Origin: Collinsella ihumii | GTDB taxonomy: Bacteria; Actinomycetota; Coriobacteriia; Coriobacteriales; Coriobacteriaceae | Length of the DNA: 64,000 nt | Direction: 5' to 3' | Assembly: GCF_900046475.1 (NCBI RefSeq) | Contig: NZ_FCOU01000012.1 | Span: 317,924-381,923, forward strand | Part shown: piece after piece, positions 11,004 to 62,233 of the stretch | How the letters are laid out: each line of letters begins with the position of its first letter | Numbering within the stretch: position 1 is the first letter of the stretch | Position numbers and translations under genes: made by a program | Notes under the pieces: model-generated | The model's database searches: none | What the model was told of the DNA's origin: nothing | Seen by the model: only the letters and a program-made list of their open reading frames with translations

Positions 11004-11283
11004 GTGATGACCTCCAACCGAAATGGCTTAGCATAGATGCCCATACATTACCGCAAGACCTTGGCGGGTGCTGTCGTGTATCCTGAGCGGTGTCAAATTC
11101 CAGACCGTTTGCATACTGCCTTAAGGCAGGCAGACGTGCTGCTTCAACCTGTTGTCGAAGGAGGGGCGAACGACGTGAGAAGACCCGTGCCCGAGCTGCT
11201 GGCCCCTGCGGGGTCGGCCGATGCGCTGTTCGCGGCGGTCGCCGCCGGCGCCGACGCCGTGTATACGGGGCTCGGCGCGCGAG

Positions 11284-11386
11284 TTCCGCCGGCGTGGCGC
11301 GACGCCTGATCGACGGCGGCGGCGTCAAGACCGACCAGCGGCCGGTCGCGTCCAAGTCCTACGCCGGCGACCCGGAGCTGCTGCAG
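11284..11386 (+). other. tyrS-like fragment misplaced in the U32 gene
   Basis: These 103 bases align without gaps to 15248-15350 inside tyrS, with about 94 identities, and encode the end of the TyrS S4 domain (RRLIDGGGVKTDQRPVASKSYAGDPELLQ). The differences include changed residues, so it is not a copy from this genome but from a related tyrS. It abuts the synthetic mosaic end at 11387, which marks it as part of a chimeric read or join. Confidence 0.8.
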
Positions 11387-11424
11387 CTGTCTCTTATACA
11401 CATCTAGATGTGTATAAGAGACAG
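11387..11424. other. Head-to-head synthetic Tn5 mosaic ends (library artefact)
   Basis: CTGTCTCTTATACACATCT is followed directly by its reverse complement, a perfect 38-base palindrome. This 19-mer is the engineered mosaic end of tagmentation kits and is not either natural IS50 end. It lies inside the U32 gene and joins non-contiguous sequence. Confidence 0.97.
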
Positions 11425-12026
11425 GTCGGGGTCGATGCGTATCGAATCGCCGAGGATCCCGGCTGGGAGGAGCTGCTGGGCAGCCTGACGGTCGTGCTCG
11501 ACGAGCCGTGTCGCGTCTCGGACGAGCCCCGCGTGCGCGAGCTGTGCGCGCGGGCGCGGGCGGTGGTGTGCCGCAACCTGGGCGCCATCGAGCTTGCGCG
11601 CGAAAGCGGGGCCGCGTTCGAGGTCGCGGCGCCGGTGTCGGCGACCAACAGCGCGACGGTGCGCTGGCTGCTCGATCTCGGCGCCCGGCGCGTCTGGCTT
11701 CCCGACGAGCTTGCGGACGACCAGGTGCGCGCGCTCGTGGACGCGGCCCCCGCCGGCTCGTGCGGCGTGCGCGTCGCCGGCTCGCCCGAGCTCATGATCT
11801 GCGAGCACTGCCTGCTCACGGCCGAGGGGCCCTGCGACGGCGACCATGCCGCCTGCGCGCGTCGGTCCGCTGTGCGCTATCTCGTGGAGGCAGACGGCAC
11901 CCGCCTGCCCGTCTCCGTGGACGTCTGGGGGCGCACGCGCATCTTCGATGCCTGCCCGCAAGATCGCCGGGGCCTGGCGCACGCGCTTGCCGCCCGCGGC
12001 CTCGGCGCCGTGTTCGTCGACACGGT

Positions 12027-12128
12027 CCCGGTTTCTGGATGGGTTGAAACGAACACGTCCCCAACCAACCCAGAAACCGTCACTTCGTCAAGAATGGGTT
12101 GAAACGAACGCGTCCCCAACCAACCCAT
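12027..12128. repeat. Palindromic repeat, family B (two degenerate units)
   Basis: Two hairpin units each contain ATGGGTTGAAACGAAC and CGTCCCCAACCAACCC. In the first, CGGTTTCTGG and its complement flank the unit; in the second, ATGGGTTG pairs with CAACCCAT. The core resembles the long palindrome at 57850-57940 (GGGTTGAAATGAAC and CGTCCCCAACGAAC). It overlaps the 3' end of the U32 reading frame and supplies its stop codon. Confidence 0.75.
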
Positions 12129-12230: not shown

Positions 12231-12468
12231 TATGATTCTCGAATCGTGGTCAATTTACCCATCGAACCGGGAATCATGAGGCTCGAGGGGCGTTCTCGCG
12301 GCCTCTGATGTCCTTCTTCAAACTGATAAAGGAGACAAGATGGCCATAACGACAGACTCAACGAGGGGCGATTCCGTCCAGACGGGCGCCACGACCGCCC
12401 CTGCGCACTTCAAACGCCCCGAAACGCCCCGGTTCGATGGGCATATTGACCACGATTCCGAAATCATA
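12231..12468. repeat. 38-base imperfect inverted repeat around the start of the DUF6056-like gene
   Basis: Bases 12231-12268 (core GAATCGTGGTCAAT and CCCATCGAACC) recur in inverted orientation at 12431-12468 with 33 of 38 identities. The right copy lies inside the coding region (residues RFDGHIDHDSEI). The 162 bases between hold the ribosome-binding site and ATG of the gene. It could be an mRNA hairpin that hides the start, a relic of a duplicated site, or an invertible segment. Confidence 0.6.
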
Positions 12469-14034
12469 CCGTCCGACGCCTCGGGTTCGGCACCTCGCCT
12501 GGGATGGCGCGCCGTCTACCTGGCGTCGGCGGCGGCGCTGGTGGCCCTGCTCGTCGCCGCGCTCGTGCCGCTTCTTGCCATCTGCCCGTACAACCACAGC
12601 TTTGCCGACGACTGGCACTACGGTGTCGATGCGCATCTGGCGCTGCAGGCGGGCGGCAGCGTGATTGACGCGATCGACGCCGCGCTGCAGGAGGCGTGCG
12701 ACACGTTTTTCTCCTGGCAGGGCACCTATTCGGCCATCGTGCTCATGGCCTTGCAGCCCGGCGTGTTCAGCGAGGCGCTCTACGGGCTCGGCGCGGTGGG
12801 GATCCTCGCCGCGCTCATGCTCTCGACGTGGTACTTCGCCTCGGTGCTCGTGCGCGACGTGCTCGACGCCGGCCGGCTGCCCCTGGTCGCGTTCGCAAGC
12901 CTCATCCTGTTGCTGCAGACGCAGCTGCTCCCGAGCCCCGTCGAGGGCATCTACTGGTACAACGCCGCGATCTACTACACGTTCTACCACGCCCTCATGC
13001 TCGTGATGGCGGGCCTCTCGGTGCGTCTGGTCCGCGGCCGCACGCGCAAGGGGCCGCTTTCCGGTCGGGGCTCTGCGGCGCGCGCGGTCGCGCTGGTGCT
13101 GCTTGCGTTCGTGGTCGCCGGCGGCAACTTCGTGACGGGCATCGTGTCGGCGCTCCTGCTCGGCGGGGCATGCGTCGCCGCGGTGCTCAAGGCGCGCGGG
13201 AGGCTCAAGTTCATCGTGCCGGCGTTCGTGGTGTTCGTCGCGGGCTTCGCGGTGTCCATGGCGGCACCCGGCAACGCGGCGCGCCAGGCGTCGCAGTTCG
13301 CCGGTGACAACCTCGGCGTCGTGCTCACGCTTGCCAACAGCGCTCTGTCCGGCATGGAGTACGTCGTGCTGTGGTCGAACGGTTACCTCGTCTGCGCGCT
13401 TGCGGTGGCCCTTCCCTTCATGGTGCTTGCCGCCAAGCGCTCGACCTGCTCGTTTGCGCACCCTCTGGCGGTCGCCGGCCTGTCGCTCGCGCTTCTCATG
13501 GCGAGCTTCACACCCACGTTCTACTCGATGGGCAACGTCGGGCCGGGGCGCGTCCAGAACATCCGCTACGACCTGTTCGTGATCCTCGTGTTCATCTGCG
13601 TCATGTGGGCGGTCGGCTGCATCGTCCGCCTGACCGAGGCGCGCGCGGCGGACGCGGGGGAGCGCGCGGCGTGGCCTCGCCTGTTCTCCAGTCCGCGGGC
13701 GTATGCGGCTTACGTGCTCGCCTGTCTGCTTCTCATCGTCGGCTCGGTCGGCGCGCTCGCGCTCGACAGCCGCCATGCCGACGACCTGACCTCGGTTTCC
13801 GCCTCCCGCTCGCTGCTTTCCGGAGAGGCCGCCGCCTACGACCGCGAGGTCTGGGAGCGCTACGCCATCATCGAGTCGAGCGACAGCGACGAGGTCGACG
13901 TGCCGTATTACACGATCGGCCCCAAGGCGCTCTTCATGGGCGACATCTACGACAACATGGACAACTACATGAACTATCGCCTGGCGCAATGGTTCGGCAA
14001 GAAGTCCATCCTCGCCTACCACAGCCAGCTGTGA
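12340..14034 (+). CDS. Large polytopic membrane protein, DUF6056-like
   Basis: The 564-residue protein has a polar N-terminus of about 55 residues, then about ten hydrophobic segments starting at AVYLASAAALVALLVAALVPLLAICP. The first outer loop carries NHSFADDWHYGVDAHLALQAGG, which resembles the DUF6056 family of glycosyltransferase-C-like envelope proteins (DD/DW motif after the first membrane helix). The last about 100 residues are soluble and end YRLAQWFGKKSILAYHSQL. AAAGGAG lies 8 bases before the ATG. The function is unknown; a role in transferring lipid-linked sugars at the membrane is only a guess from the fold. It is monocistronic before tyrS. Confidence 0.7.
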   Translation: MAITTDSTRGDSVQTGATTAPAHFKRPETPRFDGHIDHDSEIIPSDASGSAPRLGWRAVYLASAAALVALLVAALVPLLAICPYNHSFADDWHYGVDAHLALQAGGSVIDAIDAALQEACDTFFSWQGTYSAIVLMALQPGVFSEALYGLGAVGILAALMLSTWYFASVLVRDVLDAGRLPLVAFASLILLLQTQLLPSPVEGIYWYNAAIYYTFYHALMLVMAGLSVRLVRGRTRKGPLSGRGSAARAVALVLLAFVVAGGNFVTGIVSALLLGGACVAAVLKARGRLKFIVPAFVVFVAGFAVSMAAPGNAARQASQFAGDNLGVVLTLANSALSGMEYVVLWSNGYLVCALAVALPFMVLAAKRSTCSFAHPLAVAGLSLALLMASFTPTFYSMGNVGPGRVQNIRYDLFVILVFICVMWAVGCIVRLTEARAADAGERAAWPRLFSSPRAYAAYVLACLLLIVGSVGALALDSRHADDLTSVSASRSLLSGEAAAYDREVWERYAIIESSDSDEVDVPYYTIGPKALFMGDIYDNMDNYMNYRLAQWFGKKSILAYHSQL

Positions 14035-14186: not shown

Positions 14187-15401
14187 ATGCTGCCAGTTGA
14201 TGAGCAGATGCGCATCATCACCTCGGGCGCTGCACAGATTGTGCCCGAATCCGACCTCAGAAAGAAGCTCGAGCGCGGGGTGCCCTTGAACATCAAGCTC
14301 GGTGTCGACCCCACGAGCCCCGATCTGCACCTCGGCCACGCCGTCCCGCTGCGCAAGATGCGCCAGTTCCAGGACCTCGGCCACAAGGTGACCCTCATCA
14401 TCGGCAACGGCACCGCCATGATCGGCGACCCGTCCGGCAAGAACACGACGCGCCCGCAGCTGACCCAGGAGCAGGTCGAGGCCAACGCCGCGACCTACGT
14501 CTCGCAGGCCATGAAGATCCTCGATCCCGAGAAGACGACCATCGTCCACAACGGCGACTGGATCCTGTCGCTCGACCTCAAGGGCATGCTCGAGCTGTGC
14601 TCCAAGTTCACGGTCGCGCGCATCCTCGAGCGCGACGACTTCACCAAGCGCTACCAGAGCCAGACGCCGATCGCCCTGCATGAGTTCCTCTACCCGGTCA
14701 TGCAGGCCTTTGACTCGGTGAAGATCGACGCCGACGTCGAGATGGGCGGCACCGACCAGCTGTTCAACCTGCTCGCCGGCCGCGAGCTCATGGAGAAGAT
14801 GGGCATGGAGCCCCAGGTGGCACTCACCATGCCGCTGCTCGAGGGCACCGACGGCGTGCGCAAGATGTCCAAGAGCTACGGCAACTACATCGGCCTGACC
14901 GACGAGCCGGCCGATATGTTCGGCAAGACGATGTCGATTCCCGACGAGATGATCGGCAAGTACTACCGCCTGGCGAGCTCGCTGTCGCCCGACGAGGTCG
15001 ACAAGATCGAGGCCGCGCTGGCCGACGGTTCCGCCGACCCCTATGAGCTCAAGCGCGCGCTCGGCCGCGACCTGTGCGACACCTACCACGGTGCCGGCGC
15101 GGGCGAGGAGGCCGAGGCGGCGTTCGACCGCGTGTTCAAGCAGTCCCAGCTGCCCGAGGACATCGCCGAGATCCATGTCGACCTCGAGGTGAACGACGAG
15201 GGCAAGGTGTACCTGGCGGGCGTGCTGAAGGATGCCGGTCTGGCTCCTTCCGCCGGCGAGGCGCGCCGCCTGATCGACGGCGGCGGCGTCAAGATCGACC
15301 AGCAGCCGGTCGCGCCCAAGTCCTACAACGTCGACCCGGAGCTGCTGCACGTCGGCGTCGTGCTGCAGGTGGGCAAGCGCAAGTTCGCGCGCCTGGTGTA
15401 G
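14187..15401 (+). CDS. tyrS: Tyrosyl-tRNA synthetase
   Basis: The 404-residue class I synthetase charges tRNA-Tyr. The HIGH motif appears as HLGHAVPL (about residue 49), the KMSKS motif as KMSKSYGN (about 231), and the C-terminal S4-like RNA-binding domain as AGEARRLIDGGGVKIDQQPV. It belongs to the TyrS2-like (TyrZ) type by its N-terminus LPVDEQMRIITSGAAQIVPESDL. AGGAGG lies about 10 bases before the ATG. No T-box leader could be recognised in the 150 bases upstream. It is followed by a strong terminator. A stray fragment of a related tyrS sits at 11284-11386. Confidence 0.97.
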   Translation: MLPVDEQMRIITSGAAQIVPESDLRKKLERGVPLNIKLGVDPTSPDLHLGHAVPLRKMRQFQDLGHKVTLIIGNGTAMIGDPSGKNTTRPQLTQEQVEANAATYVSQAMKILDPEKTTIVHNGDWILSLDLKGMLELCSKFTVARILERDDFTKRYQSQTPIALHEFLYPVMQAFDSVKIDADVEMGGTDQLFNLLAGRELMEKMGMEPQVALTMPLLEGTDGVRKMSKSYGNYIGLTDEPADMFGKTMSIPDEMIGKYYRLASSLSPDEVDKIEAALADGSADPYELKRALGRDLCDTYHGAGAGEEAEAAFDRVFKQSQLPEDIAEIHVDLEVNDEGKVYLAGVLKDAGLAPSAGEARRLIDGGGVKIDQQPVAPKSYNVDPELLHVGVVLQVGKRKFARLV

Positions 15402-37372: not shown

Positions 37373-37754
37373 GTCTTCGGATCCTTTCGGTTGCGGCGCG
37401 GACGCGCCGTGAGCTCAAGTTCCCATTGTAGGCCACAGGGGACGGGTATGATGGGGCTGAAACGTTTTCGTATGAAAAGGGGGAGCCATGGATACACCGG
37501 TGCGGTTTCGCTTCGCCGAGCGCGAGGACACGCCGCTCGTGCTCGAATTCATCATCGAGCTCGCGCGCTATGAGAAGCTTGAAGACCAGGTGGTCGCCGA
37601 CGTGGAGACGCTCGAGCGTGAGTTGTTCGACGAGGGCGGGGCACAGGTTCTGATCGCCGAGGTCGACAGGCAGCCGGTCGGGTTCGCGCTGTTCTTCCAC
37701 AACTTCTCGACGTTTCTGGGCAGGCGCGGCCTGTACCTCGAAGACCTGTACGTG

Positions 37755-37792
37755 GTGTCCTTTATACACATCTATGTGTGTATAAGAGAACG
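37755..37792. other. Degraded head-to-head Tn5 mosaic ends (library artefact)
   Basis: TTTATACACATCT followed by ATGTGTGTATAAGAGA matches the tagmentation mosaic end and its inverse with a few errors at the outer bases. It splits the GNAT gene and adjoins unrelated sequence. Confidence 0.88.
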
Positions 37793-54429: not shown

Positions 54430-56680
54430 CTACTTGAGCATCCAGATGAAGCTCCAGCTCGGCATGTCGACGGTGGCGACCTCGGCGGTCGTGCCGCTCA
54501 TCAGGTCGGTGTAGGTCGCCGTCTCCGGCATCCAGACCGTCTTCGCGTCGTCGCTGAAGTTGAAGACCGCGTGCAGCTCGCGCCCGCCGGCGCGGCGCAC
54601 GATCCACAGGATCGAGGTGTCGCTGTAGTCCTTGGTGCAGACCTCTGCCTCGGCGCCGAAGATCGCCTCGGTGCGGCGGATGTCCTCGAGCTGCGCGAGC
54701 GCGCTGAAGATGCGCTGCTGGATCGTGCCGGGCTTCTCGATGTTTTCCGTCAGCTCCCAGTCGAACGCGCCGCGGTGGATGTAGCGGGAGTCGGCGGCCT
54801 TCTCGGGATCCTCTTTGTAGGAGTAGTCGTTCACCTGGCCGATCTCGTCACCGCTGTAGATGATGGGCAGGCCGGACTGGGTGAACATGTAGGCGTGCAG
54901 CATGATGTCCTTGCGGATGGCCACGTCCATGGCCGCCTCGTCGCCCTCGAAGCCCGCCGCCTCGATGCCGCACATGGACGCGGTGGTGCCGCAGAAGCGC
55001 GCGTCGCCCGTCACGGGGTCGGCGTTGTACAGCTCGCCGCGCGAGACGCTGCCGGGCGCGACGCCGCAGAAGTAGTCGTTCAGGAACTGCTTGTGCGGCA
55101 CCTCGGCCATGCCCCATGCGGACAGTGTGCCGTAGTCGAGGCCCCAGCCGATATCGTCATGGCAGCGCAGGTAGTTCAGGAACGTGTACTCGCGCGGCAA
55201 CCCGAAGACGGCGTCGAGCTGGGAGCGCAGCAGGCGCGTGTCGCGGCAGGCCACGGTGTTCCAGGTCGTCGCCATGGTGGTGACGTTGTAGAGCATGTGG
55301 CATTCGGGCTTCTCGACCGTGCCGAAATATGGCACGACCTCGACCGGCGCCATGACGACCTCTCCCAAAAGCACGATGCCCGGGCAGACGATCTCGCCGA
55401 TCATGCGCATCATGCGCACGATGGTGTGGACCTGCTTGAGGTTGCGGCAGTTGGTGCCGAGCTGCTTCCAAATGTAGGGCACCGCGTCGATGCGGATGAT
55501 GTCCATGCCCTGGTTCGCCAGGAACAGGAAGTTGTACATCATCTCGTTGAACACGCGCGGGTTGCGGTAGTTGAGGTCCCACTGGTAGGGGTAGAACTGC
55601 GTCATGACGCACTGGTCGAGCTCGGGCAGGTAGGTGAAGTGGCCGGGCGCGGTGGTGGGGAAGACCTGCGGGACGTCGCGGGTGTAGCGGTCGATGATGC
55701 CCTGGTCCTTCACGAAGAAGTAGCGGCTCATGTACTCGCCCTCGCCGGCGCGGGCGCGGCGGGCCCACTCGTGGTCCTCGGAGGTGTGGTTCATGACGAA
55801 GTCCATGCACAGGCTGATGCCGCGCGCATGGCATTCGTCGGCGAGGTGGGCGAGGTCGTCCATGGTGCCGAGCTCGGGCTTCACGCGGCGGAAGTCGGAG
55901 ACCGCGTATCCTCCGTCGGAGCGGCTCTTGTCCGCCGGCGTGTCGAGGAACGGCATCAGGTGGAGGTAGTTGACGTTGCACTGCTGGACGTAGTCGAGCT
56001 TCTCCTCGACGCCCTTGATGGTGCCGGCGAAGTTGTCGATGTACATCTGCATGCCGAGCATGTCGCTCGCGCGATACCAGGCGCCGGCGGTCTCGCGCTG
56101 GGCGTCGAGCTCCTTGAGCTTGGCGCTGCGCTCGTCGAAGAAGCGCTTCATCTGGTCGCAGAGCTCGGCGAACATGTCGCCGTTGTCGTAGAGCTCCATG
56201 TAGAGCCAGCGCAGCTCGTCGTGATGGCGGGCGAGGCGCTCGGCGAAGATTTTGTCCGCGGCCTCCTTCTGGGCCTTGGTCATGCGGGCGCTTGCAGGCT
56301 TTGCGGCTGCGGGGGACGCGGTCTTGGGCGCGGCCTTCTTCGCGGCGGCCTTCGGCTTGGGTGCGGCCTTGGCCTTGGGGGCCGCGGCGGTCGGCTTCTT
56401 GGCCGTCGATGTCGCGGAGCCGGCCCGTGCCGCCGTCTTCCTGGTCGCGGCGGTCTTCGTGCCGGCCGCCTTGGACGTCGCCTTCTTCGCGGCCGACGGC
56501 TCCTTGCCCGCGGCGCTCGCGGAGCCGGACGCGGGGTCGTCGGTTAGGATGGGGTCGGAGGGGAGCTGTCTCTTATACTCATCTAGATGTGTATAAGGGA
56601 CAGGGCTTGGCCTTCGGGGCTGCGGGGGTGTCGGTTACGACGGTTTCCTGCGATGCGGCAGGTTGAGGAGTCTCTGCCAT
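54430..56680 (-). CDS. Amylosucrase-like GH13 enzyme with H1-like N-terminal tail; reading frame broken by artefact
   Basis: The catalytic part (54430-56283) is a GH13 subfamily 4-type enzyme. It has an N-terminal helical domain, region I FVMNHTSEDHEW, the nucleophile in MDIIRIDAVPYIW, the acid/base Glu in GIVLLGEVV and the transition-state Asp in LRCHDDIGWG. It should split sucrose and pass glucose to an alpha-glucan. Before it, the same gene encodes about 120 residues rich in Ala, Lys and Pro (KPKAAAKKAAPKTASP), like a histone-H1 tail. The ATG is at 56680 with GAAAGGA upstream. The synthetic mosaic end at 56566-56603 interrupts this tail, and simple removal does not restore the frame, so some bases are lost. 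Confidence 0.8.
56566..56603. other. Head-to-head Tn5 mosaic ends (library artefact)
   Basis: CTGTCTCTTATACTCATCT is followed by AGATGTGTATAAGGGACAG, two near-perfect inverse copies of the tagmentation mosaic end with one error each. It lies in the N-terminal tail of the amylosucrase-like gene. Confidence 0.95.
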
Positions 56681-57831: not shown

Positions 57832-57849
57832 ACTCGGTCGGCTGCAGGA

Positions 57850-57940
57850 GGGGGTTCGTTGGGGACGGGTTCATTTCAACCCATGGCGGCGCTCCGCGCG
57901 CCGCCATGGGTTGAAATGAACCCGTCCCCAACGAACCCCC
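57850..57940. repeat. Palindrome family B, full inverted pair
   Basis: A 43-base arm beginning GGGGGTTCGTTGGGGACGGG and containing TTCATTTCAACCCATGG is followed by its perfect inverse after a short centre. It lies between the convergent panE and transglutaminase genes, seven bases from the latter's stop. Degenerate relatives are at 12027-12128. Confidence 0.9.
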
Positions 57941-57947
57941 TGCCGGC

Positions 57948-58757
57948 TCACACCCGCATGCTCTGGTCGCGCACCGAGATGAAGAGCTCCTGGCGCTGGT
58001 CGGCGCCCCCGCGGAACACGCCGGCCTCGATGGGGCAGTCGGAGAAGTCGCGCCCGTGCGCGAGCTCGATATAGTCGTCGTCGACGTCGCGGTCGTTGGT
58101 GGGGTCGATGCCGCGCCAGCGGGACCCGTCGTGCACCTCCACCCAGGCGTGCGTGGCCCCGTCGCCCACGATGAGGCCGTTGACGTAGCGGGCCGCCGCG
58201 CCCAGCGACCGCAGCGCAGCGATTAGGATGTGCGCGTAGTCCTGGCAGACCCCTCGACGCTGGGCGAACGCCTCGGAGGCGCTGGTGGTGGTGAACGTCG
58301 ACCCCGGTTCGTAGGACATGGCAGCATGCAGCGCGCCCGAGATGCGCCGCACGCAGCCCCACAGGTCGCCCGCCACATCCGCTGAGTCCCGCCCGGCCGC
58401 GTCGCGCGCGAAGGCCGCGATGCCCTCGTCGCAGGCGGCGAGGGCGGACGGCCGCCGGTACATGGGGTGCGCGTGCTCGCAGGGCTGGTCGGCGCGGTCG
58501 ACCAGTACCCGGCCGGCGGACAGAAACGAGAACTCGTCGTGCTCCGCCGCGATCCTCCCGGCGAGCACGGCGTTTCCGAACCCGTCGGTAAGCTCGAGCA
58601 GCCGCGTGTCGGGTGTCACCACGGTCTGGGTGCTCAAGACCGTCTGGCCGCCCGCGCTTTTCGGGCGGCACCGCAGCAGGAAGTCGTGCTCGCGCACGGG
58701 CTCGCTCAGATGGAGGGCGGTCTCGAACGAATAGCTGAGGATGCGCATACGCCTCAC
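57948..58757 (-). CDS. Transglutaminase-like protein
   Basis: The 269-residue cytoplasmic protein has an N-terminal beta domain (MRILSYSFETALHLSEPVREHDFLLRCRP) and a transglutaminase core with Cys in QRRGVCQDYAH, His in ATHAWVEV and Asp in GIDPTND. It belongs to the bacterial family encoded with alpha-E and ATP-grasp proteins. The start may be the GTG at 58757 or the ATG at 58748. It lies six bases after the alpha-E gene. The substrate is unknown; the trio is thought to make or break peptide-type bonds. Confidence 0.88.
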   Translation of the reverse strand: MRRMRILSYSFETALHLSEPVREHDFLLRCRPKSAGGQTVLSTQTVVTPDTRLLELTDGFGNAVLAGRIAAEHDEFSFLSAGRVLVDRADQPCEHAHPMYRRPSALAACDEGIAAFARDAAGRDSADVAGDLWGCVRRISGALHAAMSYEPGSTFTTTSASEAFAQRRGVCQDYAHILIAALRSLGAAARYVNGLIVGDGATHAWVEVHDGSRWRGIDPTNDRDVDDDYIELAHGRDFSDCPIEAGVFRGGADQRQELFISVRDQSMRV

Positions 58758-61054: not shown

Positions 61055-62233
61055 TTACTGCTCCGAGCTCACGTAGCTCTCGTCGATGGTGATCTTGGCG
61101 ACGGTGCGCGGGTAGTGGTCGCTCACGATCTGCTTCACGCGGCGGCGCAGCTGCTCCTCGGAGAGCTCAAGGTCGGCGGGGCGCACGCAGTCGAAGATCA
61201 CGTTGGTGTGCGTGGGCCCGGGGACCGTGCGCAGGTCGTGGATGGTGATGCGCGGGTCGATGATCTTGACGGCCTGGTCGATCCAGTTGCGCATGTCGGT
61301 GACGGCGGGGTCGTCGGTCACGATGGGGTCGTAGTGCAGCGTCACGATGAGGCCGTCGTCGTTCTTGAAGTCCTGCTCGATGTTGTCGATCAGATCGTGG
61401 CTCTCCATGGGGTCCGCCTCCACGGGCATCTCCACGTGCGCGCTCGCGAACTGGCGGCCGGGGCCGTAGTCGTGCACCATGAGGTCGTGGGTGCCGAGCA
61501 CGCCGGGGTAGCTCATGATCTTGGCGCGGATGTGCTCCACGAGCTCAGGCGAGGGCGCTTCGCCCAGCAGCGGGTTCACCGTGTCGCGCACAAGGCCGAT
61601 GCCGCTCCAGATGATGAAGACGCCCACCGCGGCGCCCACGATGCCGTCGAGCTGGATGTCCGCATAATGCGCCACCACGGAGGAGAGCAGGACTGCCGCG
61701 GTCGAGATGACGTCGTTGCGCGAGTCCACGGCGGTCGCTTGCAGCGTCTCGGAGTCGATGCGGCGCCCGATGGAGCGGTTGAAAGCTGCCATCCACAGCT
61801 TGACGACGATGGAGAGCAGCAGGATGACCACGAGCACGCCGTTGAACTCGACCGGCGTGGGATGGACGATCTTGTCGACGGAGGAGCCGACCAGGTTGAT
61901 GCCGATGGCGAGCACGAGCGCGGCGACCACGAGCCCTGCCAGGTACTCGTAGCGGCCGTGGCCATAGGGGTGCTCGGGGTCGGCGGGCCGGCTTGCGAGC
62001 TTGAAGCCCAGCAGGCTCACGATGTTGCTCGCCGCGTCGGACAGGTTGTTCACGGCGTCGGCGACGATGGAGACTGAGCCCGCGACAATGCCGATGGCGC
62101 CTTTCGCCACGCACAGGGCCACGTTGCACACGATGCCGACAATGCCCGCGAACTGGCCGTAGCTCGTGCGCACGGCGGCGTCGCCCGTGTTGTCGCAATC
62201 GCGCACAAAGCGGCGTACCAGCCAATCGATCAT
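61055..62233 (-). CDS. Cation diffusion facilitator (metal exporter)
   Basis: The 392-residue CDF-family transporter has six membrane helices (about 25-210). Metal-site residues are in ADAVNNLSDAASN in helix 2 and TAVDSRNDVISTA in helix 5. The C-terminal cytoplasmic domain (about 215-300) shows MSYPGVLGTHDLMVHDYGPGRQFASAHVEMP. It exchanges Zn, Mn, Fe or Cd for protons. An extra about 90 residues (DPRITIHDLRTVPGPTHTNVIFD) repeat the domain type. GAAGGGG precedes the ATG at 62233. A strong hairpin lies in the leader. Confidence 0.9.
   Translation of the reverse strand: MIDWLVRRFVRDCDNTGDAAVRTSYGQFAGIVGIVCNVALCVAKGAIGIVAGSVSIVADAVNNLSDAASNIVSLLGFKLASRPADPEHPYGHGRYEYLAGLVVAALVLAIGINLVGSSVDKIVHPTPVEFNGVLVVILLLSIVVKLWMAAFNRSIGRRIDSETLQATAVDSRNDVISTAAVLLSSVVAHYADIQLDGIVGAAVGVFIIWSGIGLVRDTVNPLLGEAPSPELVEHIRAKIMSYPGVLGTHDLMVHDYGPGRQFASAHVEMPVEADPMESHDLIDNIEQDFKNDDGLIVTLHYDPIVTDDPAVTDMRNWIDQAVKIIDPRITIHDLRTVPGPTHTNVIFDCVRPADLELSEEQLRRRVKQIVSDHYPRTVAKITIDESYVSSEQ

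Follow-up and report, generated by a model that had tools for sequence, protein, structure and literature searches.

The 38-base palindrome at 11387-11424 of the window (the whole stretch of 64,000 nucleotides of Collinsella ihumii DNA that was analysed) lies next to a displaced piece of tyrS, inside a U32-type gene that lacks its middle. We conclude that this arrangement is almost certainly an assembly artefact, produced by a mate-pair read (most likely of the Nextera Mate Pair type) whose adapter had not been trimmed. This mate-pair origin was not recognised in the first-pass annotation, which had read the site from its letters.

A search of the window for the 19-base Tn5 mosaic end, allowing up to three mismatches, returned five matches, whereas none was found in 100 shuffled sequences. 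At the site, two exact copies are placed back to back, one on the minus strand (11387-11405) and one on the plus strand (11406-11424), and the 38-mer that they form is identical to its own reverse complement. The mosaic end presumably derives from the ends of IS50/Tn5, and we take its exact form to be an engineered sequence. The earlier identification of the element as a pair of synthetic mosaic ends is borne out, given that both 19-base copies are exact and that the 38-mer is palindromic.

The segment upstream of the palindrome corresponds to the 3′ part of the tyrS gene that lies farther downstream on the same strand of the window (Table 1). The displaced copy stops one base short of the adapter, because the final base ahead of it, at 11386, does not match tyrS. 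The first base after the adapter, 11425, and the base that follows the matching part of native tyrS, 15350, are on one strand and in the right order to be joined as a circle of 3,926 bp. The order at the site is the end of tyrS, the adapter pair and the start of the remaining U32 sequence, that is, far end, adapter pair and near end. Because the tyrS copy stands before the adapter and the U32 sequence after it, a single circle of 3,926 bp explains the site, and the tyrS piece most likely came from the same genome, from a nearby gene.

The U32 frame (the family name is that of the first-pass reading) consists of approximately 35 N-terminal and approximately 200 C-terminal residues. In the loci of all seven relatives examined, 435-473 residues lie between these two parts, and these residues are absent from the frame in our genome. 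The relatives' genes are each one continuous frame of 727-804 codons from stop to stop, which the gene in the window is not. When we searched the entire assembly for the missing middle, using the middle of one relative as the query, we recovered just a paralogue with 47% identity. Thus the earlier statements that the U32 gene had lost its middle and that the site is a chimeric join, with a tyrS copy and an adapter inside the gene, both agree with our results. The annotation had further advised that 11175-12102 not be read as biology; this advice applies to approximately 11280-11424 but not to 11175-11279 and 11425 to about 12021, which match the U32 proteins of the relatives. Judging from these alignments, the artificial part appears to be limited to the former interval, the two ends of U32 look genuine, and they can be retained as separate pieces of a single gene that has been interrupted.

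Table 1. Features of the window that relate to the junction adapters.
Feature	Position	Strand	Basis
Apparently genuine 5′ part of U32-type gene	11175..11279	+	69-90% identity to 7 relatives' proteins, aligned over 31-35 residues
Unassigned edge bases flanking the displaced tyrS copy	11280-11283, 11386		
Displaced copy of tyrS 3′ part, putative far end of circularised fragment	11284..11385	+	94/102 bases equal to 15248-15349
Mate-pair junction adapter, two inverted exact 19-base Tn5 mosaic ends	11387..11424	.	Motif search
Apparently genuine 3′ part of U32-type gene, putative near end of circularised fragment	11425..12021 (about)	+	56-67% identity to 7 relatives' proteins
Native tyrS place of the displaced copy	15248..15349	+	Sequence match
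Degenerate junction adapter	37754..37791	.	7/38 mismatches
Junction adapter	56566..56603	.	2/38 mismatches

The gene order in related genomes supports the view that U32 and tyrS are genuinely adjacent, since tyrS follows U32 in the stretches of six of the seven relatives, where the matching points are separated by 1,949-2,271 bp as compared with 3,926 bp in our genome. The seventh locus, L210 (G029), where no tyrS occurs within the stretch and the two genes lie about 27 kb apart, was dropped from this range of distances. The distance in our genome is longer because a frame of 564 codons (12340-14034), membrane-bound in look when inspected by eye, sits between U32 and tyrS, and the shorter distance in the six relatives suggests that this frame is missing there.

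One can envision how such a junction would arise. Tn5 tagmentation would have cut the DNA of the strain at 11425 and near 15350, placing a 19-base mosaic-end adapter onto each end of the piece, and circularisation of this 3.9-kb piece would have joined the end of tyrS, the two adapters and the start of the remaining U32 sequence. A junction read that retained the adapter may then have bridged the gap in U32, presumably in a gap-closing step. If so, the true middle of the gene (about 1.3-1.4 kb) is missing because the junction read bridged the gap, and the tyrS-adapter stretch stands in its place.

We take the 38-mer to be, letter for letter, the sequence of Illumina's Nextera Mate Pair kit. 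We did not find it printed as such in the papers searched; the part of the NextClip account that was available gives lengths and no letters, and describes a tagmentation mate-pair library in which each fragment end receives a 19-base adapter, the two being joined upon circularisation into a 38-base pair (PMC3928519). The double junction adapter targeted by NextClip and NxTrim, as far as the available texts describe it, is like the element reported here in that two inverted 19-base adapters form 38 bases between the ends of kilobase-scale fragments; the difference is that here the adapter was left in the assembly instead of being trimmed, and that several copies carry mismatches. The same 38 letters appear, in the accessible part of another publication, as a circularisation ("ring") adapter for a library of approximately 4 kb, which is alike in fragment size as well, but there the adapter was ligated to sonicated DNA (PMC7357533). 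The sequence alone cannot separate these protocols, and the exact kit is therefore unproven. Available portions of two further reports describe gel-free Nextera Mate Pair fragments with a peak at 2-4 kb and a range of 1-15 kb (PMC4676930), and a pipeline in which both trimmed and untrimmed mate-pair reads were assembled before the use of GapCloser (PMC5552949).

If the site arose from a mate-pair library, then similar junctions might be expected elsewhere in the assembly, which comprises 2,836,446 bases in 35 contigs. With up to three mismatches allowed, the mosaic end occurs 83 times (reversed control, 0), and the stretches that were fetched take in all 83 matches. We identified 42 junctions with at most 11 mismatches in 38 positions, 10 of them perfect (reversed control, 0); they account for 76 of the 83 mosaic-end places, with seven lying outside. 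Up to 150 bases of each junction flank, with adapters masked, were then compared with the surrounding stretch of up to 19.9 kb. The best local match was in circle geometry for 20 of the 42 junctions but for 21 of 383 random sites (Fisher p = 4.6e-12). The remaining 22 junctions had no match (15), a match in the wrong direction (5) or an inverted match (2). Three of the five wrong-direction cases are segments between adjoining junctions and one (56566) is a low-complexity repeat, while for the junction C10 162663 (36 bp) no explanation was reached. The 20 circles measure 1,735-7,187 bp, with a median of 3,654.5 bp, and so fall inside the 1-15 kb that the available part of PMC4676930 gives for gel-free Nextera Mate Pair fragments. 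In all 20, the match reached the adapter to within five bases, as compared with 6 of 21 matches of the same geometry when 250 random sites were taken as a further control.

These data bear on the possibility that ordinary Nextera paired-end reads ran through into the adapter, with no circularisation involved. The mosaic end would be identical in that case, and such adapters run on into known tails, as the part of PMC3906532 available to us describes. However, read-through does not account for the pairing of the mosaic ends, 76 of 83 of which belong to the 42 junctions, and it brings in no sequence from kilobases away in a fixed orientation. Moreover, the paired-end tails, searched with up to one mismatch, occur three times anywhere in the 659,560 bases examined. 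We rejected simple read-through on the grounds of the pairing and the kilobase-distance geometry, and regard it as very improbable.

A real insertion in the strain, whether of a Tn5-derived element or in the form of a natural palindrome, would be compatible with an exact element lying inside a gene. Unlike IS50/Tn5, however, the site yielded no transposase, cargo or target duplication, and nothing lies between the two mosaic ends. A 9-base target duplication with two or fewer mismatches was seen at none of 41 junctions (best, 3/9), and the 42 sites include many degenerate copies. Furthermore, a search of 32 further genomes, 20 from the same genus and 12 from the same order, for the 38-mer with up to three mismatches found no copy, yet the exact 38-mer is present in public genomes in at least 111 stretches from at least 18 named assemblies of varied bacteria (loci L082-L192). 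The lack of a target duplication and the absence from the 32 genomes led us to reject a transposon insertion, and we give the idea of a real insertion practically no credence.

Among the public matches listed, the exact 38-mer often occurs many times per assembly. The flanks of the 138 exact junctions among these matches were examined in stretches of at most 8 kb, in which long circles are hidden, and gave a best match in circle geometry for 52, no match for 55, a wrong-direction match for 21 and an inverted match for 10. The flank match abuts the adapter in 49 of the 52 circle cases, 16 of the 21 wrong-direction cases and 1 of the 10 inverted cases listed. The 49 abutting circles among the matches listed comprise 28 that span 545-5,294 bp and 21 that span 213 bp or less. 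The latter are too short for mate-pair fragments, and kilobase-scale circularisation does not explain them. Because of these short circles, the test outside our genome supports the mate-pair interpretation less cleanly than does the test within it.

The tyrS copy differs from the native gene at 8 of 102 positions, and the first-pass annotation had assigned it to a related genome. This is probably wrong, since the piece lies at a mate-pair distance and orientation from the strain's own tyrS and seven of its eight mismatches are at codon positions 1 and 2 and change six residues of TyrS. At these six sites, an alignment showed the residue of our genome in 10, 10, 5, 11, 11 and 7 of 11 relatives, and the residue of the chimera in none of the 11. 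Differences in tyrS among the 11 relatives are at third positions in 80 of 151 cases (Fisher p = 0.03, a weak result that treats related sequences as independent).

For the adapter copies, the correct sequence is known. In the 39 junctions with at most eight mismatches, they carry 95 substitutions, 69 from A/T to G/C and 13 in the opposite direction. In the 20 circles, the displaced flanks contain 138 substitutions, with 69 from A/T to G/C and 28 opposite, and their identity to the local original varies from 70 to 100%.

An alternative source of the mismatches is a related genome or a second close strain, from a mixed culture or a sample of the same run, that was joined through the same adapter mechanism, in which case the assembly would be a mixture of two genomes. 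Consistent with this alternative, the eight mismatches stand beside an adapter that is perfect; by our own estimate, an error-free 38-mer would be expected in about 4% of cases at the error rate of the tyrS copy, unless correction of the adapter drew on the many copies of it that the reads contain. The substitutions in the tyrS piece are only mildly biased, five of the eight being toward G/C, and the nearest relative (L032) likewise has four of its five tyrS differences at codon positions 1 and 2 and one at the third position. On the other hand, a related genome would not readily explain the codon positions of the mismatches, residues that none of the 11 relatives has, or adapter copies that themselves contain substitutions, and the range of flank identities is more like variable read quality than like one second genome. 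These observations favour read error, and we think it quite probable, from the pattern of the substitutions, that the mismatches are read errors in the strain's own DNA; a contribution from a second genome seems unlikely.

Two further junctions in the window, at 37754-37791 and 56566-56603, were missing from the list in the earlier annotation. No source for the flanks of the former was found when we searched the window and the stretch; this junction is inside a frame that resembles an acetyltransferase by eye. The 35 bases just before the latter are 86% identical to 61305-61339 in circle geometry (4,736 bp), but the best match of its flank is a nearby low-complexity repeat and not this circle. 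The junction is located close to where a minus-strand frame rich in lysine and alanine begins.

The relevance of these observations is confined to data quality: the adapter is present at three places in the window and 42 in the assembly, and an adapter inside a gene leads to false gene breaks and fusions. We advise masking approximately 11280-11424, 37754-37791 and 56566-56603, with the flanks of the last two being uncertain. The 38-mer combined with circle geometry provides a simple test for this type of artefact, although degenerate copies require a search that tolerates mismatches.

The window also contains a dispersed hairpin repeat with the core GGTTGAAACGAACCCGTCCCCAA, at 12042-12064, 12097-12119, 57859-57881 and 57909-57931. 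With up to two mismatches, 122 copies of the core are found in the genome (reversed control, 0) and three in one relative (G008), and none in the 19 further relatives searched. Long hairpins arise from inverted pairs whose starts are separated by about 50 bases, for example, 57840-57950 of the window, for which −106.4 kcal/mol was calculated as RNA, and the repeat appears to be REP- or MITE-like. The U32 frame overlaps at its 3′ end with a direct pair of the repeat.
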